Positions 45,217-58,206 of a stretch of DNA of 64,000 bases are shown here, one piece after another. How positions within the stretch are numbered: the first letter of the stretch is position 1; every line of letters starts with the position of its first letter. The stretch lies in contig NZ_JABMCI010000066.1 of NCBI RefSeq assembly GCF_013359775.1, forward strand, positions 186,001-250,000, written 5' to 3'. Position numbers and translations under genes: made by a program. The DNA comes from Cellulomonas humilata (GTDB taxonomy: Bacteria > Actinomycetota > Actinomycetes > Actinomycetales > Cellulomonadaceae). The notes below the pieces were generated by a model. It saw nothing but the letters and a program-made list of their open reading frames with translations, had not been told where the DNA came from and searched no databases.

Positions 45217-45480
45217 GTGCGGGTCGCCATCCGGGTCCGGCCCGGCGCGTCCCGCACCAAGGTCGGCGGCACGCGCGCCGACCGGCTGGTGGTCGCCGTG
45301 AGCGCCCGGGCGGTCGACGGCGCCGCCACGCAGGCCGCGCTCGATGCCCTCGCCAAGGCGTTCGGCGTGCGGCCGCGGCAGGTCCGGCTGGTGTCGGGGG
45401 CGACCAGCCGCGACAAGCTGGTGGAGGTCGACGCCGACGAGGTGGAGCTCGCCGGGCGTCTCGCGGAGCTCCGCGGCTAG
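45217..45480 (+). CDS. DUF167/YggU family protein
   Basis: An 87-residue protein with the DUF167 core: VRPGASRTKVGG near the start, SARAVDGAATQAALDALAK, then VSGATSRDKLVEV. The family has a known fold but no settled function. It starts 1 bp after the preceding stop. Its TAG overlaps the stop of the opposing hydrolase gene in one CTAG (45477-45480). Confidence 0.85.
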   Translation: MRVAIRVRPGASRTKVGGTRADRLVVAVSARAVDGAATQAALDALAKAFGVRPRQVRLVSGATSRDKLVEVDADEVELAGRLAELRG

Positions 45481-46106
45481 AGGACCGACCGGATCGCCTC
45501 GACCAGCGCCCCCGGGTTGTCGTGCTGGACGAAGTGCCCCGTCGCGGGCAGCACCCTGACCTCGACGCCCAGCCGGTCGTGCAGTGCCCACGCCGCCTGG
45601 TGCCGCGCTGGCGGGGACAGCTCACCGACGGTGACGAGGACGCGGCCCTGTCCGGGGCTCGGCGCGGACGGCTCGAACCGGCGGAACATCGCGAGGTCGC
45701 GGCCGACGGCTCCCGGATCGGCAGGGGCCATCGTCGGGTCCCAGGACGGTCCGTAGAGCGCGGCACCGAACCCGGGCACACCGTCGGCCGCGTACCCGGC
45801 CACGACGTGGTCCAGCAGGCCCGGGACCAGGGAGCCGACGGCCGGCTCGTGCAGGACGGCAGCCGCCAGCATCCGGTCGGACGCCGCGAGGGCGAGCCCG
45901 AGGGTGGCGCCCCCGCTCACCCCGACGACGATCGCGCCCGCGGCGTCGTCGGCCAGGGCGGCGAGCTCGACGGCGAGGTCGCCGCTGCTCGCGCGGTCGG
46001 GGGCGACGACGTCGAGCTCGTCGGCGCGCAGGAGCTCGGTCACCGGGTCCCAGATCCGCGCCGTCGTCGCTGCGCCGTGCACGAGGAGCACGCGGGTCCG
46101 GGGCAT
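45477..46106 (-). CDS. Alpha/beta hydrolase
   Basis: A 209-residue hydrolase with the oxyanion-hole region LVHGAATTARIW, the nucleophile elbow GVSGGAT and a C-terminal histidine in LPATGHFVQHDNP. It is short, with a reduced lid, and could be an esterase or a lactonase. Substrate unknown. It is divergent from the BMP-type transporter operon. Confidence 0.82.
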   Translation of the reverse strand: MPRTRVLLVHGAATTARIWDPVTELLRADELDVVAPDRASSGDLAVELAALADDAAGAIVVGVSGGATLGLALAASDRMLAAAVLHEPAVGSLVPGLLDHVVAGYAADGVPGFGAALYGPSWDPTMAPADPGAVGRDLAMFRRFEPSAPSPGQGRVLVTVGELSPPARHQAAWALHDRLGVEVRVLPATGHFVQHDNPGALVEAIRSVL

Positions 46107-46260: not shown

Positions 46261-47772
46261 ATGAGCACCGACGCCGTCGCCCGCGCACGCGGCCGGGTCG
46301 GCAAGCCGGCCGCGCTCCTCGAGGTGCGCAGCCTGTCCAAGCGCTTCGGCGAGGTGCAGGCCAACTGGGACGTCGACCTCACCGTCCTGCCGGGCACGGT
46401 GCACGGGCTGATCGGCGAGAACGGCGCCGGCAAGAGCACGTTGCTGAAGATGATCTACGGCGTCTACACGCCCGACGAGGGCCGGATGTTCGTCGACGGC
46501 GCCCCGGTGGCGCCGGGCAGCCCGGCCGACGCGCGTGCCCTCGGCATCGGCATGGTGTTCCAGGACCTGCGGCTGGTGCCCGCCCTCACGGTCGCCGAGA
46601 ACATCGCGCTCGCGCTCCCGGAGGGCCCGAGGCTGCGCCTGACGCAGCTGGCGGCGCGCATCACGGAGGCGTCGGAGGCGTACGGGCTGGCGGTCGACCC
46701 GTCCGCGCAGGTCCGCCACCTGTCCATCGGCGAGCGGCAGCGCGCGGAGATCCTCAAGGTCCTCATGACCGGTGCGCGGCTGGTCATCCTCGACGAGCCG
46801 ACGAGCGTGCTCGCGCCGCAGGAGGTCGAGGCGCTGTTCGGCGTCGTGGCGCAGCTGCGCGACCGCGGGCTGGGAGTCGTCCTGGTGACGCACAAGCTGG
46901 GGGAGGTCCGCGCGATCGCCGATCAGGTGACCGTGCTGCGCGGCGGGCAGGTGATCCTCAACGCGGAGGACCCCGGCAACTTCTCGGACGCCGAGCTGGT
47001 CGAGGCGATGGTCGGGCGGCGGGTGCCGCCGCTCGCGGTGGAGCGTGCCGCGGTCCCGCCGCGGGATCACCCGGTGCTCACGTTGGCGGGCGCCACGGCC
47101 CTCGGCGACCGCGGGCACGTGGCGCTCAAGGGCGTCGACCTCGCCGTCTACCCCGGGGAGCTCGTCGGCGTGGCGGGTGTCGCGGGGAGCGGCCAGAAGG
47201 AGCTGTGCGAGGTCGCGCTCGGGCTCCGGCCGGTCACGTCGGGGTCGGTCGACGCCGGCGACGGTGCCGCGGTCGCGGTGCCGGAGGACCCCGTGGCGGA
47301 CTCGGTCGTGCCGGGGCTGACGGTGCTGGAGCACATGGTGCTCGACGGCCGCGCGGTGCCCCGACGGGGGCTCGGCGTCGACTGGCCGGCCGTCGGTGCG
47401 CGCACCGCGGTGCTGGACGAGCGCGTCGGTCTGCACATGGCGCCGACCAGGCGCACGCTCTCGTCGCTGTCCGGAGGGAACATCCAGCGCGTCCTGCTCA
47501 CGCGCGAGCTGGGTCAGGACGCCGCTCTGGTGGTCGCGGCCTACCCGAGCCGCGGCCTCGACGTCGCGAACACCCGCCGGACGCAGGAGCTGCTGCTCGA
47601 GCACCGGGCCCGCGGGGCCGGCGTGCTCATGGTCTCGGAGGACCTGGACGAGCTCATCGCCGTCGCCGACCGGATCGCCGTGATGCACGACGGCCACGTG
47701 GTCGGGGTCGTCGACACCGCCGGCGCCGACCGGATGTCGATCGGACGACTGATGCTCGGAGGTGTCGCATGA
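46261..47772 (+). CDS. Nucleoside/BMP-type ABC transporter, double ATPase subunit
   Basis: A 503-residue protein with two ABC cassettes in one chain, as in RbsA/NupA/YufO. The first cassette (about 20-250) has [23 protein letters not shown] and [14 protein letters not shown]. The second (about 265-500) has a degenerate Walker A ([11 protein letters not shown]) and [12 protein letters not shown] 46261 is the best start although its ribosome-binding site is weak. First gene of a six-gene operon; it overlaps the permease gene by 4 bp (ATGA). Confidence 0.9.
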
Positions 47773-48860
47773 GCCAGGAGGTGACCAAGGAGGCCCCCGC
47801 GTCCGCTGCGGCCGCGCCGCCCGCCGAACCCCCTCGGCGCGTGCGGGTCCGGGGTGCCGCGCTCCTGCGCTGGGTGGGTGCCCTGATCGCCGGTCTCGTG
47901 GTCTTCGGGGCGTTCGTGCTGGCCAACGGCGCGGACCCGTTCGCGGTCTACGCCGACATCTGGACCTCGACCCTGACGCAGCCCGGGCAGTTCCAGCAGA
48001 TCGTGCTGCGCGCGGCGCCCATCGCGCTGGCGGGTCTCGCGGTCGTCGTGCCGGCGCGCGCGGGGCTGGTGAACGTGGGCGGCGAGGGGCAGCTGATCAT
48101 CGGGGGCGTGGCCGCGGCGGGCGTCGCGCTGTGGCTCACGCCGGTCGCCTCGCCGTGGCTGATCATGCTGCTGATGATCCTGGCCGCGATGGCCGCAGGT
48201 GCGGCGTGGGCCGGCATCGCCGCCGCCATGCGCCTCGTCGTCAAGGTCAACGAGGCCGTGACCACGCTGCTGCTCAACTACGTCGCGCTCTACTCGATGC
48301 TCTTCCTCATCCTCGGCCCGTGGAAGGACCCGGCGGCGCTCGGGCAGTCCACCAGCGTCGAGCTCAACGACGCGATGAAGCTGCCGGTCTTCGCCGGGAC
48401 CGCCATCCACGTCGGGGTGGCGCTGGCGGTGGTCGCCGCCGGTGCCGTCTGGTTCGCGCTGACCCGCACCACGTGGGGCTTCCGGCTCTCCGTGGTCGGC
48501 GGCAACGCGGAGGCCGCCCGCCGCGCCGGACTGCCGGTGGTCACGCTGCTGCTCACCGCGCTGCTGCTCGGCGGCGCGCTGGCCGGGCTCGCCGGGTTCA
48601 TCCAGTTCGCGGGGATGGAGTACAAGCTGCGGCCGACGTTCGGTCTGACCATCGGCTACGTCGCGTTCCTGGCCAGCTGGCTCTCCCGGCACAAGCCGCT
48701 GCCGCTGCTGCTCGCGTCGCTGGTGCTGGCCGCGATCGCGGTCTCCGGCAACAGCCTCCAGATCGGCTCGGGCCTGCCGGCGGCGAGCGTCAACATCCTC
48801 ATGGGGCTGGTCCTGCTGGCCGTCCTCGGCTGGACCGGCCCGCGGAAGGTGCGCTCGTGA
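47769..48860 (+). CDS. BMP-type ABC transporter permease 1
   Basis: A 363-residue BPD_transp_2 permease with about 9-10 helices and a 30-residue Ala/Pro N-terminal tail. It has [19 protein letters not shown] and [18 protein letters not shown], typical of nucleoside/purine-type permeases paired with BMP binding proteins. Coupled to both neighbours by 4-bp overlaps. Confidence 0.9.
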
Positions 48861-49768
48861 TCATCGACATCCTGGCGGGGGCGGTCCGCGGCGGCACGTC
48901 CATCATGTACGCGGGCCTCGGGGAGACGATCTCCGAGCGGGGCGGCGTCATCAACCTCGGCACCGAGGGCGCGATGCTGCTCGGTGCCCTCGGTGGGTAC
49001 GCGGTGACGGCGGAGACCGGGAACCCGTGGCTCGGCGTCCTGGGCGGCGCGCTCGCGGGTGCCCTGCTCAGCCTGGTGCACGCGGTCCTCGTGGTCAGCC
49101 GGCGCGCCAACCAGTTCGCCAGCGGGCTCACCCTCTACTTCCTGGCGCTCGGCGTCACGTCACTGTTCGGCGTCTCCTACGTCAGCCGCCAGATCAACGC
49201 GTTCACACCGGTCCCCGTGCCGGGGCTGAGCGAGATCCCCGGGCTCGGCCCGATCCTGTTCGACCACGACCCGCTGGTCTACGTCGCCTACGTCGCGGCG
49301 CCGGTCATCTGGTGGGTGCTGTTCCGCACGCGCGTCGGGCTGCTGGTGCGGACGGCGGGCGAGCGGTCGGAGGCGCTCGAGGTGAACGGGTACTCCGTCC
49401 GGGCCGTGCGGTACTGCGCGACCGTCGCGGGTGGTGCGCTGGCGGGGATCGGCGGCGCCCACATCTCCATCGCCTACGCCAACAGCTGGTTCGAGAACAT
49501 GATCGCCGGCCGCGGGTTCATCGCGGTGGCCCTGGTGATCTTCGCGATGTGGAACCCCGTCCGCATCATGGCCGGCGCGTACCTGTTCGGCGCGGCGCTG
49601 TCGCTCGCCTCCGTCCTGCAGACCTCCGGCATCGCCGTCAACCAGTTCGCGCTGAACGCCGTGCCGTTCGTCCTCACGCTCGTCGTCCTGGCGATCCTGG
49701 GCCGCCGCACGATGCTGGCCGCCCCGGACGAGCTGCTCAAGGTGTTCGACAACAGCCGCACCACCTGA
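48857..49768 (+). CDS. BMP-type ABC transporter permease 2
   Basis: A 303-residue second permease with ISERGGVINLGTEGAMLLG and ANQFASGLTL. It forms the heterodimeric channel with permease 1. GTG start overlaps the upstream stop (GTGA). The binding-protein gene follows after 31 bp. Confidence 0.9.
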   Translation: MIIDILAGAVRGGTSIMYAGLGETISERGGVINLGTEGAMLLGALGGYAVTAETGNPWLGVLGGALAGALLSLVHAVLVVSRRANQFASGLTLYFLALGVTSLFGVSYVSRQINAFTPVPVPGLSEIPGLGPILFDHDPLVYVAYVAAPVIWWVLFRTRVGLLVRTAGERSEALEVNGYSVRAVRYCATVAGGALAGIGGAHISIAYANSWFENMIAGRGFIAVALVIFAMWNPVRIMAGAYLFGAALSLASVLQTSGIAVNQFALNAVPFVLTLVVLAILGRRTMLAAPDELLKVFDNSRTT

Positions 49769-49799: not shown

Positions 49800-50951
49800 A
49801 TGCGCCTCACCCGAACAGCACGCGTGTGTCTCGTCGCGGCGGTGGTCGCGGTCCTCGCCGCGTGCAGCCCCGCCGTCAGCACCCCGGAGGCCGACGGTTC
49901 CGCTCCGGCCGGCGACTCCGCACCCGGGGCGGACGCCACGAAGGTCGGAGTCATCGCCGTCGGGCCGAAGGACGACTTCGGCTACAACCAGGCGGTCTTC
50001 CAGGGCGTCGAGGCGCTGCGCGGCGAGTTCCCCGACCTCGAGGTCCTCGAGGCGTACAACATCCCCGAGGACGACACGGCCGCGACGACGATGGAGAGCA
50101 TGGTCGCGCAGGGGGCGACGATCATCTTCGCCACCAGCTACGGCCACCTGGACGCGGCCAAGCAGGTGGCCGACGCCCACCCCGAGGTCGTCGTGGTCCA
50201 CCAGGGCGGCCTGCTCGACCCGGCGCCGGCGAACATGGGGACCTACTTCGGCAGCGTGTTCGAGCCGGTCTACCTGGCCGGCATCGCCGCGGGGGCCGCG
50301 ACGCAGACCGGGAAGCTGGGCTACATCTACGCCATCCCGATCCCGCAGACGCTGGCCAACATCAACGCGTTCACGCTCGGTGCGCAGTCGGTGCGGCCGG
50401 ACGTCGAGGTGACCGCGGTGTCGACCACGAGCTGGTGCGACCCGGCCACGCAGGCCGACCGCGTGGCGTCGCTGCTCAGCTCCGGCGTCGACGTGATGAC
50501 GCAGCACCAGGACTGCACCAAGACGATCATCGAGGCGACCGAGGCCGCCGGTGCCTTCACCGTCGGCTACCACGCGGACGCGTCGTCGCTGGCACCCGAG
50601 GGCTGGCTCACCGGTTCCGAGTGGAACTGGGGCCCGCTGTACACGGACATCGTGCAGACGGCGATCGGCGGCGGCTTCACCGGCAGCGAGTACAACGGCA
50701 ACTACCGCGCGAACATGGCCAGCGGCGAGAACCCGTTCGTCGCCTCCGCGTTCGGGCCGAGCGTGTCCGACGAGACGAAGGCCCTCATCGCCGCGGCTGC
50801 CGAGGAGCTGGAGGCTGGTGGCAGCCCCTTCACCGGACCTGTCACCGCGCAGGACGGGACCGTGACGGTGGCCGACGGCGAGACCCCGCCGATCGAGACC
50901 ATCGAGCAGATGGACTACTTCGTCCAGGGCGTGACCGGCACCGTCTCCTGA
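49800..50951 (+). CDS. BMP-family ABC substrate-binding lipoprotein
   Basis: A 383-residue lipoprotein (lipobox LAACS near residue 19) of the Bmp/PnrA-like family: KVGVIAVGPKDDFGYNQA, then GATIIFATSYGHLD. PnrA-type proteins bind nucleosides; relatives in operons with amidohydrolases bind other small nitrogen compounds. Followed by two isochorismatase-fold hydrolases, it may bring in biuret or a ureide-like compound. AAGGA before the ATG. A strong hairpin follows, so this gene may be expressed above the hydrolases. Confidence 0.88.
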   Translation: MRLTRTARVCLVAAVVAVLAACSPAVSTPEADGSAPAGDSAPGADATKVGVIAVGPKDDFGYNQAVFQGVEALRGEFPDLEVLEAYNIPEDDTAATTMESMVAQGATIIFATSYGHLDAAKQVADAHPEVVVVHQGGLLDPAPANMGTYFGSVFEPVYLAGIAAGAATQTGKLGYIYAIPIPQTLANINAFTLGAQSVRPDVEVTAVSTTSWCDPATQADRVASLLSSGVDVMTQHQDCTKTIIEATEAAGAFTVGYHADASSLAPEGWLTGSEWNWGPLYTDIVQTAIGGGFTGSEYNGNYRANMASGENPFVASAFGPSVSDETKALIAAAAEELEAGGSPFTGPVTAQDGTVTVADGETPPIETIEQMDYFVQGVTGTVS

Positions 50952-50956
50952 CCGTC

Positions 50957-50988
50957 CCCGGGGCCGGCTCGTGCGAGCCGGCCCCGGG
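50957..50988 (+). terminator. Intra-operonic hairpin after the binding-protein gene
   Basis: Perfect 15-bp arms CCCGGGGCCGGCTCG and its complement with a minimal loop. It lies between the binding protein and the first hydrolase on the same strand, so it probably acts as an attenuator or 3' mRNA stabiliser as well as a partial terminator. Confidence 0.7.
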
Positions 50989-51008
50989 CTTCCACCCGAG
51001 GGGACCCC

Positions 51009-51548
51009 ATGCACGTCACCGGCACCACGCCCTACCCGTGGCCGTTCGACGGCGACCTCGACGGCACCCGCACCGCGCTGCTCGTCGTCCTGCCGGCGGG
51101 GGACTGCGTGCTCGCCGCGCCGGTCGAGCCCCTCGCCTCGGCGGTACGGGCGGCGGGAGGCAGGGTCATCGTCGTCCGCACGACGGCGCCGGCTCCGGAC
51201 TCGGATGCGGGCCCCCACCCGCACGGGCTCCCGGCCGACCTCGAGATGCAGGCCGGTGGGATCGACGGCTTCTACGCCAGCGACCTCGACCTGGTCCTGC
51301 GCACCGGCCGCACCCGACGGCTCGTCGTCGTCGGCGTCGGCCTGGAGACCTGCGTGCACTCGACCCTGCGCGATGCGAACGACCGCGGCTACGAGTGCCT
51401 GCTCGTCGTCGACGCCTGCGTGCCGATCGACCCGTCCCTGGTGGCCGCGTCGATCTCCAGCATCGAGATGTCCGGCGGGATCTTCGGCGCGGTGGGGTAC
51501 TCCACCGACGTCGTCGAAGCGCTCGCACCCCAGCCCGCCCTGCGCTGA
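51009..51548 (+). CDS. Shortened isochorismatase-fold protein, likely catalytically dead biuret-hydrolase paralogue
   Basis: A 179-residue paralogue of the next gene: both share [32 protein letters not shown] and [10 protein letters not shown]. The cysteine is kept (GLETCVHSTL). The catalytic Asp position reads LLVVLPAGD instead of NIDWQQDF, the Lys position reads GGIDGF instead of GKGSF, and the [10 protein letters not shown] substrate segment is missing. It therefore looks like a pseudoenzyme, perhaps a partner subunit. Strong GAGGGG site, and conserved reading frame, argue it is expressed. Confidence 0.8.
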   Translation: MHVTGTTPYPWPFDGDLDGTRTALLVVLPAGDCVLAAPVEPLASAVRAAGGRVIVVRTTAPAPDSDAGPHPHGLPADLEMQAGGIDGFYASDLDLVLRTGRTRRLVVVGVGLETCVHSTLRDANDRGYECLLVVDACVPIDPSLVAASISSIEMSGGIFGAVGYSTDVVEALAPQPALR

Positions 51549-51563
51549 CCCGAGGAGAGCACG

Positions 51564-52289
51564 ATGACCGACCAGCTCACGACGACGACGGTGGCGTACG
51601 GGCCTGTCGTCGCGGACCCCTACTCCTGGCCCTACGACGGCACGTTCACCGCCGAGACGACGGCCGTCCTCAACATCGACTGGCAGCAGGACTTCTGCGG
51701 CCCCGGGGGATACGTCGCCGCGATGGGCTACGACCTGGAGCTGACCCGGGCGGGCCTGGCGCCCACGGCGGCGATGCTCGAGGTGGCACGTGAGCTGGGC
51801 TTCCACATCATCCACACGCGTGAGGGCCACCGTCCCGACCTGTCCGACCTGCCCGCCAACAAGCTGTGGCGCTCGCGGCGGATCGACGCCGGCATCGGGG
51901 ACCTGGGCCCGTGCGGCCGGATCCTCACCCGCGGCGAGCCCGGGTGGGAGATCGTCCCGGAGGTGGCGCCCCTGCCTGGCGAGGTGGTCATCGACAAGCC
52001 GGGGAAGGGCTCGTTCTACGCGACGGACCTGGACCTGATCCTGCGCAACCGGGGGATCACGCACATCATCCTCACGGGCATCACCACCGACGTCTGCGTG
52101 CACACCACCATGCGCGACGCCAACGACCGCGGGTACGAGTGCCTGCTCCTGTCCGACTGCACGGGCGCCACGGACTACGGCAACTACCTGGCCGCGCTGA
52201 AGATGGTGACGATGCAGGGCGGCGTGTTCGGCGCGGTCGCGGACTCGGCGGCCCTGCTGGCCGCACTGGCGAACCCGGTGACCGTCTAG
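51564..52289 (+). CDS. Biuret amidohydrolase-like cysteine hydrolase
   Basis: A 241-residue isochorismatase-fold enzyme. The triad is Asp in [10 protein letters not shown], Lys in DKPGKGSF and Cys in [10 protein letters not shown]. Long stretches ([47 protein letters not shown]) match what I recall of the Rhizobium biuret hydrolase BiuH. It would split biuret to allophanate and ammonia, yet no allophanate hydrolase gene is in this window. A related ureide or triuret is also possible. Good GAGGAGA site, 15 bp after its paralogue. Confidence 0.86.
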
Positions 52290-52347: not shown

Positions 52348-52407
52348 CGGATACGGTCGGCGACACCTGCCTCGCACATCGACGTGCGGGGAGACGAAGG
52401 AGTCGCC

Positions 52408-55400
52408 ATGTCGCCCGCCGACGCCCCCGTCCGCCCCCTGTCTCGAGCCTTCGCCGCGCTGACTGCCCTCGCGGTCGCGGGCATCGGGCTCGTCGCCGCC
52501 GTCGGAACCCCCGCCGCAGCCGCCGACCGCACCGTCGCCCTCGTCGGCAGCCTGCAGAGCGAGCTCGGCTGCCCGGGGGACTGGCAGCCCGACTGCAACG
52601 CCACGGACCTCGCCCCCACCACTACGGCGGGGGTGTACGCCGCGGACTTCACCGTGCCGGCCGGTGAGTACGAGTACAAGGTCGCGATCAACGACAGCTG
52701 GGACGAGGCGTACGGCAAGAACGGGACAACGGGAGACAACAACAACATCCCGCTCGTGATCGCCGGCCCGTCGACGCTGCGGTTCACCTACGACGACACC
52801 ACGCACCGGATCGCGCTGACCCCGCTGGACCTGGGCGCGGGCTACACGCCGGCGGACGACGCGCTCGTCGCGACCCCCGTGCGCGACCCTGGAGCGAACC
52901 AGCAGTTCTACTTCGTGATGACCGACCGGTTCGCCGACGGCGACGACGCGAACGACACCGGCGGGCTCACGGGCGACCGGCTGACCACGGGGTTCGACCC
53001 CGCGGACAAGGGCTTCTACGAGGGCGGTGACCTGGCAGGCCTGCACAGCAAGCTGGACTACATCGAGGGCCTGGGCACCACGGCCATCTGGCTGACCCCG
53101 TCGTTCAAGAACCGCGCGGTGCAGGGCACGGGCGCGAACGCGTCCGCCGGGTACCACGGGTACTGGATCACCGACTTCACGCAGATCGACCCGCACCTGG
53201 GCACCAACGCCGAGTTGGAGGCGCTGATCGCCGACGCCCACGCGCGCGGCATCAAGGTCTACTTCGACATCATCACCAACCACACGGCCGACGTCATCGA
53301 CTACACCGAGGGCCAGTACGGCTACATCGACCAGGCCACCAGCCCGTACACGGACGCCGGCGGCACGGAGTTCGACCCCGCGACCTACGCGGGCACCGAC
53401 TCGTTCCCGACGATGGACGCCGCGACGAGCTTCCCGTACACGCCGGTGATCGCGCCCGAGGACGAGAACGTCAAGGTTCCCGGCTGGCTGAACGACCCCA
53501 CCCTCTACCACAACCGAGGCGACTCGACCTGGGTCGGGGAGTCCGTCACGTACGGCGACTTCACCGGGCTCGACGACCTCATGACCGAGCACCCCGCGGT
53601 CGTCGACGGATTCGTGGACGTCTACAACGACTGGGTGGACCTGGGCGTCGACGGCTTCCGCATCGACACCGCCAAGCACGTGAACTTCGAGTTCTGGGAG
53701 AAGTTCACGACCGCGGTGCGCGACCACGCGACCTCGGTCGGCAACCCCGACTTCTTCATGTTCGGCGAGGTGTACGACGCCGACCCCGCCAAGCTCTCCC
53801 CGTACCTGCGCGACAGCGACATGAACGCGGTCCTCGACTTCACGTTCCAGTCGGCTGCCGCCAACTACGCCAAGGGCTTCTCGGCGGGCGGCCTCAAGGC
53901 GCTCTACGCGGGCGACGACATGTACACCACCCCGACGACGAACGCGCAGGCGCTGCCCACCTTCCTGGGCAACCACGACATGGGCCGCATCGGCTACGTC
54001 GTCAAGGACGCCGGCAACCCGGAGCAGCGCTCCGAGCTGGCGCACTCCCTCATGTACCTCACGCGCGGGCAGCCGGTCGTGTACTACGGCGACGAGCAGG
54101 GCTTCGCGGGGGTCGGCACCGGCGGCGACAAGGACGCGCGGCAGTCGCTGTTCGCGACGCAGGTGCCCGAGTACGCCAACCAGACGCTGCTCGACGGCAC
54201 GACCGTCGGCTCCGTGGACCGGTACGGCACCGACACCGCGCTGTACGACCACATCGCCGAGCTGGCCGCCCTGCGGTCCGCGCACCCGGCGCTCCAGGAC
54301 GGTGCCCAGATCGAGCGGTACGCCGACGGCGCGGTCTACGCGTTCTCCCGCGTCGACGCCGACGACAAGGTCGAGCACCTCGTGGCGACGAACAACGGGA
54401 CGACCCCGGCGACGGTCACGATCGACACCCTGACGCCCGGCGCGACGTTCGCCCCGCTGTACGGCACGTCGACGAGCCTGACGGCTGCCGCTGACGGCAC
54501 TGTGTCGGTGACGGTCCCCGCCCTGAGCGCGGTCGTGCTCCAGGCCGGGACGACCGTGGCTGCGCCCGCCACGGCGGGACCGATCACGCTCACCGCCCCC
54601 ACCCCGGGCGCCGGGCTGACGGGGCAGGCCGCCGTCGGCGCGGACGTGGCCGACGACGTCTGGAGCCAGACGTCCTTCGCGTACCGCGTGCTCGGTGACG
54701 ACGCGTGGACGCCGCTCGGCACGTCGGAGACGACGTCGCCGCGGGTGTTCCACACGGTCTCCGGCCTGCCGGACGGTGCCGTGGTGGAGTACCGAGCGGT
54801 GACCGTGGACGCCGCCGGGAACGCGTCCGCCGCGTCCACCTACGCGAGCGTCGGCGTCGCCATCGACGGCGTGGTCCCCGACACGGGGCCGGTCAGCCCG
54901 ACGTCGGTGTCCGTGCCCGGCAGCCACAACAGCGAGATGGGCTGCGCGGGCGACTGGGAGCCCGCCTGCGAGGTGGACCAGCTGACCAAGCGCGCGGACG
55001 GCGTGTGGTCCGGCACGTTCGACCTGCCCGTCGGCACCTACGAGTACAAGGTCGCCATCAACGGCTCCTGGGACGAGAACTACGGCGCCGGCGGCGCACC
55101 GGGCGGCGCGAACGTGACGTACAGCGTCACGACGGCCGGACCCGTGACGTTCTACTACGACGAGACGACGCACTACTTCTCGTCCACCGCGCAGGGCCCC
55201 ATCCTCACGGTGCCGGGCTCGTTCAACAGCGAGGTGGGCTGCGACGAGGACTGGGCCCCGTGGTGCATGGCGACGTGGCTGCAGGACCTGGACGGTGACG
55301 GGACCTTCACCTACACCGAGCCGGACCTCCCGGCCGGCTCGTACGAGGCCAAGGCGGCGCACAACCTCAGCTGGGACGAGAGCTACGGCGCCGGCGGTTC

Positions 55401-58206
55401 GCCGACAGGGGGGAACATCCCGTTCTCGGCGCCGGGCGGCAAGCCCGTCACGTTCTCCTACGTGCTGGCCACGCACGTCCTGACCATCACGGTCACCGAC
55501 CCGCCGCTGCCCGGTACCGGGCTGGCGCAGGCGCAGTGGATCGACCGCGACACGATCGCGTGGCCCGCGGCCTGGGCGCCCGACGCCGCCGCGAGCACCT
55601 TCGCGCTGCACGCCTCGCCCACCGGCGGCTTGAAGGTCCAGGACGGCGCAGTGGTGGGCGGCGACGGCGACCCCGTCCCGCTGACCTACGACCCGGCCGG
55701 GCTCACGGCGGAGCAGCTCGCGAGGTTCCCCGCGCTGACCGGCTACCTCGCGCTGCACCTGCCCGACGGCGCGCCGACGTCCGACCTGCTGCGCGGTGCG
55801 CTCCTGGTCACCCAGGCGGCGTCCGACGGCACCTACGAGGCGGCCACGGGGGTGCAGATCCCGGGCGTGCTCGACGACGTGTACGCCGGTGACGCCCAGG
55901 AGCGGACCCTCGGCGTCACCTGGAAGAAGGGCGTCCCGTCGCTGGCCGTCTGGGCGCCGACGGCACAGGAGGTCGCGCTGCTGGTCTGGCCGGGGACCTC
56001 GTCGACCGAGCAGCGCGTGGCCGCCACGCGTCAGGCGGACGGCACCTGGACCGTGCCCGGGAAGAAGTCCTGGACCGGTGCGCGCTACCTCTGGGAGGTC
56101 ACGGTGTACGCGCCGACGACCGACCAGGTGGAGGTCAACCGCGTGACGGACCCGTACTCGGTGGCGCTCACGCTCAACTCGACGCACTCGGTGCTGGTGG
56201 ACCTGGCCGACAAGGCCTTCCGCCCGACCCAGTGGGAGAAGGCGAAGCAGCCGGTCGTGCGGCCCGTGGACCAGACGATCTACGAGCTGCACGTGCGGGA
56301 CTTCTCCATCAGCGACCTGACCGTCCCGGCGGCCAAGCGCGGCACGTACCTGGCGTTCGCCACCAACGGCGCCGGACGCACGCACCTGCGTGAGCTCGAG
56401 AAGGCGGGCCTGACGACGATCCACCTGCTGCCGACGTTCGACATCGCCTCTATCCAGGAGGACAAGGCGCTCCAGGAGACCCCGGACTGCGACCTCGCGT
56501 CGTACGCACCGGACTCCGACCAGCAGCAGGCCTGCGTGACCGCCGTGGCCGACGCCGACGGGTTCAACTGGGGCTACGACCCGCTGCACTGGACGGCCCC
56601 CGAGGGCTCGTACGCGGTGAACGCCGACGGTGGCGCACGCGTCGCCGAGTTCCGCACGATGGTCGGGGCGCTGCACGCCGACGGCCTGCAGGTGGTGCTC
56701 GACCAGGTGTTCAACCACACGACGGCCAGCGGTCAGTCGCCGCAGTCCGTGCTCGACCGCGTGGTGCCCGGCTACTACCAGCGGCTCAACGCGATCGGGA
56801 ACGTGGAGACCTCGACCTGCTGCCAGAACATCGCCACCGAGCACCAGATGGCGCAGAAGGCGATGGTCGACTCCGTGGTGACCTGGGCCCGTGACTACAA
56901 GGTCGACGGCTTCCGGTTCGACCTCATGGGCCACCACTCGGTGGAGAACATGGAGGCCATCCGGACCGCTCTCGACAGGCTGACCCCGAAGAAGGACGGC
57001 GTCGACGGCAAGAAGGTCTACCTGTACGGCGAGGGCTGGAACTTCGGCGAGGTGGCCGACAACGCGCTGTTCACGCAGGCCACGCAGGGTCAGCTGGGCG
57101 GCACGGGCATCGGCACGTTCTCCGACCGCCTGCGCGACGCCGTGCGCGGAGGGGGACCGTTCGACGAGAACCCCCGCATCCAGGGCTTCGGTTCCGGTGG
57201 CGGTACCGACCCCAACGGTGACGCCATCAACGGCTCGGAGGCCGTCCAGCTGGCCCGGGCGGCGCACGATGCCGACCTGGTCCGCCTCGGCATGGCCGGC
57301 AACCTGCGCGACTACGCGTTCCTGACGAGCGCGGGGACGGTGCAGACCGGCGCGGAGCTCGACTACAACGGCCAGCCGGCCGGGTACGCCGACTCCCCGG
57401 AGGAGGTCATCACCTACGTCGACGCCCACGACAACGAGACGCTGTGGGACTCGCTCACGTACAAGCTGCCCACGGACACCCCGATGGCGGACCGCGTGCG
57501 CATGAACACCGTCTCGCTGGCGACGACGGCCCTGGCCCAGACGCCCTCGTTCTGGCACGCGGGCGCCGACCTGCTGCGGAGCAAGTCGCTCGACCGGAAC
57601 AGCTACAACTCCGGCGACTGGTTCAACCTGCTCGACCTGTCCGGCCAGGACAACGGCTTCGGCCGCGGTCTGCCCCCGGCGGCCGACAACTCCGCGAAGT
57701 GGCCCATCCAGCAGCCGCTGCTGGCCGACCCGGCGCTCAAGCCGACGCCGGCCGACATCGCCACGGCCTCCAAGGCCGCGGACGACCTGCTGCGGCTGAG
57801 GTTCTCCACGCCGCTGTTCCGGCTCGGCTCGGCGGACCTGATCGAGCAGAAGGTCAGCTTCCCGGGCTCCGGCCCGGACGCCGACCCGGGTGTCGTGGTC
57901 ATGGCCATCGACGACGCGCCCGGCTGGGACCCGACGACCCGGCGCTGGACCAAGGACGTGGACCGCACGCTCGACGGCGTCCTGGTCGTGGTCAACGGGT
58001 CCGACGAGGCGACGACGCAGACGGTGCCCGACCTGTCCGGCCACCGGTTGACACTGTCGTCGGTCCAGGCCAAGGGGAGCGACCCCGTGGTCAAGGGCAC
58101 CACCTGGGACAAGGCCACCGGCACGGTGACCGTCCCGCCGCGCACGGTCGCGGTGCTCGTCGAGAAGGCGGGCCACGGCCACGGTGGGTGGCACTGGGGG
58201 CGGTGA
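52408..58206 (+). CDS. Secreted bifunctional alpha-amylase/pullulanase (amylopullulanase)
   Basis: A 1932-residue exoenzyme with a Sec signal peptide (cleavage near AAAAD, residue 40). Order: X25-like module (about 42-145), GH13 amylase (about 165-720; nucleophile in DGFRIDTAKH near 418, acid in FGEVYD near 454, third acid in GNHDMGR near 523), Fn3-like linker, two more X25-like modules (PGSHNSEMGCAGDWEP, PGSFNSEVGCDEDWAP), pullulanase N-domain and CBM48, then GH13 pullulanase (DGFRFDLMGHHS near 1507, YGEGWNFGE near 1542, DAHDNET near 1675). It should cut both alpha-1,4 and alpha-1,6 bonds of starch and glycogen. No LPXTG or anchor; start has AAGGAG. Confidence 0.93.
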   Translation: MSPADAPVRPLSRAFAALTALAVAGIGLVAAVGTPAAAADRTVALVGSLQSELGCPGDWQPDCNATDLAPTTTAGVYAADFTVPAGEYEYKVAINDSWDEAYGKNGTTGDNNNIPLVIAGPSTLRFTYDDTTHRIALTPLDLGAGYTPADDALVATPVRDPGANQQFYFVMTDRFADGDDANDTGGLTGDRLTTGFDPADKGFYEGGDLAGLHSKLDYIEGLGTTAIWLTPSFKNRAVQGTGANASAGYHGYWITDFTQIDPHLGTNAELEALIADAHARGIKVYFDIITNHTADVIDYTEGQYGYIDQATSPYTDAGGTEFDPATYAGTDSFPTMDAATSFPYTPVIAPEDENVKVPGWLNDPTLYHNRGDSTWVGESVTYGDFTGLDDLMTEHPAVVDGFVDVYNDWVDLGVDGFRIDTAKHVNFEFWEKFTTAVRDHATSVGNPDFFMFGEVYDADPAKLSPYLRDSDMNAVLDFTFQSAAANYAKGFSAGGLKALYAGDDMYTTPTTNAQALPTFLGNHDMGRIGYVVKDAGNPEQRSELAHSLMYLTRGQPVVYYGDEQGFAGVGTGGDKDARQSLFATQVPEYANQTLLDGTTVGSVDRYGTDTALYDHIAELAALRSAHPALQDGAQIERYADGAVYAFSRVDADDKVEHLVATNNGTTPATVTIDTLTPGATFAPLYGTSTSLTAAADGTVSVTVPALSAVVLQAGTTVAAPATAGPITLTAPTPGAGLTGQAAVGADVADDVWSQTSFAYRVLGDDAWTPLGTSETTSPRVFHTVSGLPDGAVVEYRAVTVDAAGNASAASTYASVGVAIDGVVPDTGPVSPTSVSVPGSHNSEMGCAGDWEPACEVDQLTKRADGVWSGTFDLPVGTYEYKVAINGSWDENYGAGGAPGGANVTYSVTTAGPVTFYYDETTHYFSSTAQGPILTVPGSFNSEVGCDEDWAPWCMATWLQDLDGDGTFTYTEPDLPAGSYEAKAAHNLSWDESYGAGGSPTGGNIPFSAPGGKPVTFSYVLATHVLTITVTDPPLPGTGLAQAQWIDRDTIAWPAAWAPDAAASTFALHASPTGGLKVQDGAVVGGDGDPVPLTYDPAGLTAEQLARFPALTGYLALHLPDGAPTSDLLRGALLVTQAASDGTYEAATGVQIPGVLDDVYAGDAQERTLGVTWKKGVPSLAVWAPTAQEVALLVWPGTSSTEQRVAATRQADGTWTVPGKKSWTGARYLWEVTVYAPTTDQVEVNRVTDPYSVALTLNSTHSVLVDLADKAFRPTQWEKAKQPVVRPVDQTIYELHVRDFSISDLTVPAAKRGTYLAFATNGAGRTHLRELEKAGLTTIHLLPTFDIASIQEDKALQETPDCDLASYAPDSDQQQACVTAVADADGFNWGYDPLHWTAPEGSYAVNADGGARVAEFRTMVGALHADGLQVVLDQVFNHTTASGQSPQSVLDRVVPGYYQRLNAIGNVETSTCCQNIATEHQMAQKAMVDSVVTWARDYKVDGFRFDLMGHHSVENMEAIRTALDRLTPKKDGVDGKKVYLYGEGWNFGEVADNALFTQATQGQLGGTGIGTFSDRLRDAVRGGGPFDENPRIQGFGSGGGTDPNGDAINGSEAVQLARAAHDADLVRLGMAGNLRDYAFLTSAGTVQTGAELDYNGQPAGYADSPEEVITYVDAHDNETLWDSLTYKLPTDTPMADRVRMNTVSLATTALAQTPSFWHAGADLLRSKSLDRNSYNSGDWFNLLDLSGQDNGFGRGLPPAADNSAKWPIQQPLLADPALKPTPADIATASKAADDLLRLRFSTPLFRLGSADLIEQKVSFPGSGPDADPGVVVMAIDDAPGWDPTTRRWTKDVDRTLDGVLVVVNGSDEATTQTVPDLSGHRLTLSSVQAKGSDPVVKGTTWDKATGTVTVPPRTVAVLVEKAGHGHGGWHWGR

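Follow-up and report, generated by a model that had tools for sequence, protein, structure and literature searches.

In the window analysed here, a stretch of 64,000 nucleotides from Cellulomonas humilata, a gene for biuret hydrolase (BiuH) is directly preceded by a gene for a paralogue that has lost catalytic residues. The locus raises the question of what keeps such a pseudoenzyme gene in place, since the protein could serve its neighbour, act on its own, perform another chemistry or be a duplicate in decay. A first-pass annotation, made from the sequence alone, had suggested a structural partner, an allosteric subunit or a substrate sensor. In this study, we compared occurrence, linkage, conserved positions, selection and predicted structure of the pair. 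The coordinates are collected in Table 1.

Table 1. Features of the locus, given as positions in the window.
Feature	Position	Strand	Basis or remark
alpha/beta hydrolase, divergent upstream	45477..46106	-	PF12697, 47.2 bits
ABC ATPase, duplicated cassette (start inferred)	46261..47772	+	PF00005, 2 stretches
ABC permease 1	47769..48860	+	named from position and homologues in other loci
ABC permease 2 (start inferred)	48857..49768	+	PF02653, 112.3 bits over scanned stretch 48872-49765
BMP/PnrA-type substrate-binding protein of ABC transporter	49800..50951	+	PF02608, 121.2 bits
14-bp hairpin between binding-protein and pseudoenzyme genes	50957..50988	+	folding
pseudoenzyme, isochorismatase-fold paralogue of BiuH	51009..51548	+	without catalytic Asp/Lys, lid and substrate loop; has Cys115, E113, S155, I158
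biuret hydrolase BiuH	51564..52289	+	NF050097, 413.7 bits (cut-off 370); PDB sequence match 6xjm RhdBiuH

Gene pair and predicted structure

The pseudoenzyme gene is an open frame of 179 aa with GAGGGGA ahead of its ATG, and its stop is separated by 15 nt from the start codon of the BiuH gene, an ATG that in turn follows GAGGAG; the earlier description of an intact frame with a strong ribosome-binding site directly ahead of the active copy thus holds. Both products belong to the isochorismatase family (PF00857, cut-off 27 bits), with 67.6 bits for the pseudoenzyme and 143.5 bits for BiuH. The latter passes the NCBIfam equivalog listed in Table 1, carries the catalytic D39, K145 and C178 together with K148 and Q218, and has the BiuH-type residues Y50, Y56, S150, D176, T203 and V221; residue roles were taken from the accounts in PMC7948467 and PMC5806882, with positions matched via an offset of 3. 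Its top PDB sequence matches are RhdBiuH (6xjm) and the Rhizobium BiuH. What had been called biuret-hydrolase-like is a biuret hydrolase by family cut-off and residues, with predicted activity on biuret.

With BiuH (PDB 6azo, 6azq and 6xjm; NF050097), the pseudoenzyme shares the predicted fold, an N-terminal PYxWP, the helix around ANDRGYEC and the loop GGxFGA. It differs from BiuH in the loss of Asp39, Lys145 and the HTREGHRPD substrate loop (P0002 numbering), which the first-pass annotation had seen correctly, in the loss of the second substrate Lys and the mobile lid, and in a Ser that replaces the cross-subunit Gln. Against the BiuH model it scores 110.9 bits, below the equivalog cut-off of 370, with residues 80–172 as the best stretch, and it does not have the catalytic triad and Gln202 that mark TrtA. 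The AF2 model (pLDDT 93.6, pTM 0.90) predicts an isochorismatase-like fold, for which the best PDB fold match is BiuH 6xjm (Z 23.6, rmsd 2.4, 174 residues aligned). VIA-align superimposes the model on BiuH structures with Z 22.0–23.6 over 171–175 residues at rmsd 2.0–2.7, where RutB, at Z 22.0, stands level with the Rhizobium BiuH rows. A search of the own genome returned no further pseudoenzyme matches beyond the pseudoenzyme itself and BiuH.

Genomic context

A BMP homologue is found on the same strand in all 56 pseudoenzyme loci examined, directly upstream in 48, and 45 of the 56 hold all four transporter genes. Published triuret operons are described as containing trtA, biuH and atzF (PMC7948467), and one study describes a triuret operon with an ABC transporter named bmpA-nupABC (PMC12625717); the cluster therefore fits scavenging of ureide nitrogen. 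An allophanate hydrolase is encoded elsewhere in the own genome (603.6 bits, cut-off 511), and matches over this cut-off occur in 11/11 paired genomes of the genus versus 30/70 others (Fisher p 0.00045, kinship being ignored). At the loci themselves, AtzF-like tblastn matches, which do not tell AtzF from other amidases, are present in 28 of 54 cases with pseudoenzyme, mostly just downstream of BiuH, and also in 13 of 25 without, so that such linkage does not set the pair apart. Urease alpha (PF00449) gave no match in the own genome, the control matching in 4/14, while TIGR02714 (cyanuric acid hydrolase) matched neither there nor in the control, so that its absence is not implied.

The region 50940–51020 around the hairpin folds with -45.2 kcal/mol (z -3.64). 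At other Cellulomonas loci, comparable stems of different sequence occupy the equivalent site, and L041, L043, L046 and L051 are without one. The hairpin may set the ratio of the binding protein to the products of the downstream genes. The divergent alpha/beta hydrolase, a protein of 209 aa, bears a GVSGG motif. By blastp, homologues are found in 28/54 pseudoenzyme loci (5 of them weak, 45–70 bits) versus 0/25 loci without pseudoenzyme, in varying places, namely divergent upstream, between the binding protein and the pseudoenzyme, or after BiuH; this enzyme may provide a further step of the pathway. BiuH is followed on the same strand by an ORF of 1940 aa (52384–58206, +), the motifs of which we take to resemble those of amylase/pullulanase.

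Occurrence across genomes

A scan of genome contigs yielded at least 79 loci; among those listed, the named loci closest to the window come from Cellulomonas. Dropped before the counts were L018 (broken BiuH), L001–L010 (same genomes as the window or as named loci), the N-containing BiuH of L070, rows of less than 165 aa (the BiuH fragments of L049 and L068) and L103_ac2. Among the loci listed, 57 pseudoenzyme copies, that of the window included, were aligned; the profile alignment A1 comprises 52 of these, L033, L035, L064 and two fusions being left out. A quick tree with 156 rows places the 57 copies together on one side of a branch with support 100, which substantiates the first impression of a conserved pseudoenzyme. 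One copy comes from Chloroflexota (a Dehalococcoidia MAG) and the rest from Actinomycetota. Stops flagged in three class-level copies turned out to be terminal stops only.

A search for the same pair in other genomes, proposed at the outset as a check, found the two genes adjacent, on one strand and with the pseudoenzyme first, in 52/52 listed loci with both genes; L072 and L076, where the sequence ends too soon to show BiuH, are outside the 52. With starts chosen by script, the spacing lies within -10 to 40 nt in 48 of the 52 loci, and 31 pairs overlap by 4 nt. Three profile surveys, each scoring the best 8 candidates per genome, found pseudoenzyme matches of at least 197 bits in 3, 5 and 7 genomes among 396, 396 and 394, and a BiuH match adjoined the pseudoenzyme in 3/3, 5/5 and 7/7 of them; it should be noted that the surveys overlap, with G000 in all three and some other genomes recurring from A1. 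In close relatives, where a missing or frame-shifted paralogue had been named as evidence against a role, the outcome is mostly in favour of one. A strong full-length pseudoenzyme with a BiuH match downstream is found in 11/81 genomes of the same genus, from which G034 is excluded as a twelfth genome with a fragment at a contig end; most of the 81 have neither pseudoenzyme nor BiuH as a strong match. In genome G068 of this genus, the BiuH-like matches at L018 fall into two different frames, a pseudoenzyme match is missing within 3.2 kb, and the locus is apparently a decayed BiuH.

In one MAG, the pseudoenzyme frame runs into that of BiuH with no intervening stop on two diverged contigs, L074 and L084. 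A ribosome that begins at the first start must therefore make a fused protein, while an internal ribosome-binding site could also yield BiuH alone. The AF2 model of the natural fusion (pLDDT 68.7, pTM 0.60) is weak and uninformative on docking. Its alignment held 13 rows, among them a single BiuH row with the first residues on the wrong half, and with two or more BiuH rows MAFFT aligned pseudoenzyme rows to the wrong half of the fusion. In a fold search, this model matched individual chains from its own family (BiuH, TrtA, RutB and others).

The linkage bears on the reading in which the pseudoenzyme self-assembles apart from BiuH and serves the pathway independently, as a regulator or a binding protein, for instance for the transporter or for ureides. 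The BMP gene present in 56/56 loci would suit such a role, but BMP genes also stand beside BiuH where the pseudoenzyme is missing, and a protein working independently would not be expected to adjoin BiuH in every copy with enough downstream sequence, often with the 4-nt overlap, or to be fused to it in one MAG. Together with the residue data given below, this leaves an independent role conceivable, though improbable.

BiuH exists without pseudoenzyme in 30 of the 51 BiuH genomes picked for comparison, and therefore has no general need of it. The proposed structural partner or allosteric subunit is nonetheless a reasonable class of function, since the pseudoenzyme is under purifying selection and adjoins BiuH wherever both are visible; only a partner on which BiuH depends in general is at odds with the data. 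At L180, L184 and L185, BiuH lies beside a BMP binding protein 63–65% identical to that of the window, with no pseudoenzyme between; these loci are natural no-partner controls. In the BiuH tree, BiuHs without pseudoenzyme are nested among paired ones, with 5 label changes of which at least 2 are forced by supported branches. Repeated loss of the pseudoenzyme is the simplest reading of this tree, although losses and gains are not distinguished by this count.

Selection and conserved positions

Measurement of selection, likewise proposed earlier, gave NG86 dN/dS values for the pseudoenzyme of 0.05–0.57 in 13 locus pairs, with 12/13 at or below 0.39 and all below 1. By this sequence-based measure the pseudoenzyme is under purifying selection, and 23 columns are invariant across the 52 aligned copies of A1. 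With essential catalytic residues lost, the predicted fold intact and this selection acting on it, the protein qualifies as a pseudoenzyme.

A decaying duplicate that hitch-hikes in the operon would evolve faster than BiuH, as is seen from the higher dN/dS of the pseudoenzyme in 12/13 pairs (NG86), and could be missing from some BiuH lineages, as it is. It would not be expected to keep dN/dS below 1 throughout and invariant columns, to form one clade that includes the Chloroflexota MAG, or to have intact frames even where interruptions had been flagged; frame-shifted copies beside an intact BiuH were not seen among the copies examined. On the basis of the single clade, invariant columns, intact frames and dN/dS, we reject the pseudogene reading, which retains hardly any probability. 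Since the pair of dead and live copy recurs across many Actinobacteria, the dead copy probably functions as a partner subunit instead of being in decay.

The 57 copies have a scatter of residues at the former catalytic positions. At the position of Asp39, Gly (17), Leu (9) and Ala (7) prevail besides others; at that of Lys145, Ala (40) and Ser (13) besides others; and at that of Cys178, Cys (15), Gly (13), Thr (8), Ser (7), Pro (7), Ala (6) and one more residue are found. The cysteine of the window copy is therefore incidental: retention of the cysteine and of a core stretch of 10 residues had been described accurately for this copy, but a kept catalytic Cys as a family trait is rejected at 15/57. 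The same scatter, Cys included, weakens the idea of a substrate sensor that uses the old active site.

An enzyme with changed chemistry, which would not be dead at all, could be expected from the confidently predicted fold and from the polar residues invariant in the 52 aligned copies (E113, R121, N124, D125, E129, D135 and S155). However, 5/7 of these are equally fixed among the partner BiuHs, so that no new role is needed for them, the nucleophilic Cys is kept only in the minority of copies given above, with mostly Gly, Leu or Ala at the Asp site and Ala or Ser at the Lys site, and lid and substrate loop are gone. We therefore consider changed chemistry quite unlikely.

Three other positions, Glu113, Ser155 and Ile158, are fixed in 57/57 pseudoenzymes, while Asp, Gln and Val occupy them in 52/52 partner BiuHs. 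In the Rhizobium BiuH, Gln215 is reported to be donated by the adjacent monomer and to gate the main tunnel jointly with Val218, and the exchange Q215A to raise KM from 79 to 2073 uM (PMC5806882). In TrtA, which is reported as dimeric, it is again the other subunit that donates Gln202 (PMC7948467). Since the equivalents of Gln and Val reach into the active site of the neighbour, the pseudoenzyme conserves what a neighbour would be offered, and not what it would use itself. Fixed residues that differ from BiuH could also mark a new site of the pseudoenzyme's own, as an independent regulator would have, but conservation of a binding site is not seen in the former catalytic pocket. The retention of Gln218 in 52/52 partner BiuHs agrees with BiuH homodimers and, to this extent, with independence of the two proteins. 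It is equally expected if BiuH continues to form dimers with itself, whereas the need for it would not be obvious were BiuH purely heterodimeric.

Conservation along the putative interface is uneven. The mean majority in the pseudoenzyme is 0.86 for the stretch 181–189, a dimer helix in BiuH, and 0.98 for 217–224, compared to 0.55 overall; helix 205–216, at 0.56, is no better than average, and the third dimer helix (98–105) is largely absent. The PYxWP near the N terminus is present in 57/57 pseudoenzymes and 50/52 partner BiuHs, with 0/18 among the TrtA-like rows. A BiuH change specific to the pair (His to Tyr208) was considered and discarded, resting on 2 independent, non-significant contrasts on supported branches; this comparison used 23/26 lone loci, since extraction by motif missed 3.

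A model for the pair

We propose that the pseudoenzyme is a non-catalytic subunit in a hetero-oligomer with the BiuH of the adjoining downstream gene, within a cluster of transporter and hydrolase for nitrogen from biuret or triuret, and put the probability of this reading at roughly 0.6. Pseudoenzyme and BiuH would bind through the helices that form the BiuH dimer. Ser155 and Ile158 of the pseudoenzyme would then stand where a second BiuH would put Gln215 and Val218 into the active site and tunnel of its neighbour, and this small Ser/Ile edge from the dead subunit would tune specificity, cooperativity or stability of BiuH. The retained Gln218 and the missing helix could be accommodated by BiuH homodimers mixed with hetero-dimers, or by a smaller tetramer interface.

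A variant that overlaps with this model restricts the pseudoenzyme to the contact between dimers, where it would raise yield or stability of BiuH without reaching the active site. The Rhizobium BiuH is reported to be a tetramer with a second interface of ca. 700 A2 (PMC5806882), and the PYxWP motif shared by pseudoenzyme and BiuH is missing in 18/18 rows similar to the reportedly dimeric TrtA (PMC7948467), which is in agreement with such a contact. It would, however, leave the fixation of the tunnel-gating positions S155 and I158 in all 57 copies unexplained, and we regard a role at this contact only as rather doubtful.

Relation to TrtA

Like TrtA (PDB 6xix and 6xje; PMC7948467), the pseudoenzyme is a second IHL paralogue beside BiuH, often accompanied by a BMP transporter, and it has Glu at the position of E160 and Ile at that of I205 (18/18 TrtA-like rows and 57/57 pseudoenzymes). 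It differs in that TrtA has the full triad with Gln202, and TrtA-like rows have no PYxWP. Eighteen loci without pseudoenzyme, nearly all from Pseudomonadota, encode a second, fully catalytic BiuH paralogue, with a BMP gene within the stretch in 13; this second paralogue groups with actinobacterial genes bearing the consensus residues of TrtA. In four genomes of the same genus as the window (G010, G003, G077 and G078; L014–L017), a gene of the TrtA clade occurs with no pair, and no allophanate hydrolase match was obtained there at the threshold used.

Among 51 genomes with BiuH, a TrtA-like match (225–250 bits) is found in 0/21 with pseudoenzyme and in 25/30 chosen without, although 22 of the 25 belong to one family. 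Counted by family, the contrast is 0/9 with pseudoenzyme versus 3/6 without (Fisher p 0.044), where the 30 genomes without pseudoenzyme were hand-picked from BiuH-like survey matches and those with TrtA-like-only or unclear matches (e.g. G1076 and G1145) were excluded. Since the TrtA-like match is absent from 21/21 pseudoenzyme genomes, a wider substrate range of the pair can be imagined, in which Ser/Ile supplied in trans would open the pocket, so that BiuH homodimers would take biuret and mixed dimers a larger ureide such as triuret, in replacement of TrtA. This is the weaker step of the argument, and we consider it speculative and on balance unlikely.

In a tree with outgroup, the pseudoenzyme is placed outside both BiuH and TrtA, with support 94/87 for BiuH plus TrtA and with long branches in play. 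Descent of the pseudoenzyme from TrtA or from BiuH is in neither case rejected (AU p 0.194 and 0.186).

Discussion

Neither the fold, BiuH and the transporter nor the concept of a dead partner is new. The heteromeric metformin hydrolase is an example from bacterial catabolism of urea-type nitrogen, in which one active and one inactive homologous subunit are combined; it is a metal enzyme of the ureohydrolase fold and not a cysteine hydrolase. In AdoMetDC/prozyme of T. brucei, a dead paralogue is described to activate its partner (PMC5201418). The pair of pseudoenzyme and BiuH would resemble it as a dead paralogue controlling an active one in a complex, which is described for prozyme and inferred here, and differs from it in fold, organism and reaction. 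By title and start of abstract, we found no literature on a conserved dead BiuH paralogue or on such a pair; prior mention is possible in two BiuH surveys (Environ Microbiol 2018 and AEM 2020, as cited in PMC12625717).

If the proposed model is true, a second subunit has been overlooked in a family of bacterial enzymes for nitrogen scavenging, and measurements on actinobacterial BiuH from which the partner is missing could give a wrong picture of its activity and specificity. TrtA would then represent the natural alternative in other lineages. The pair would further be well suited to testing cleanly how a live active site can be re-shaped by a dead subunit across the dimer interface, via a fixed exchange of Gln to Ser.
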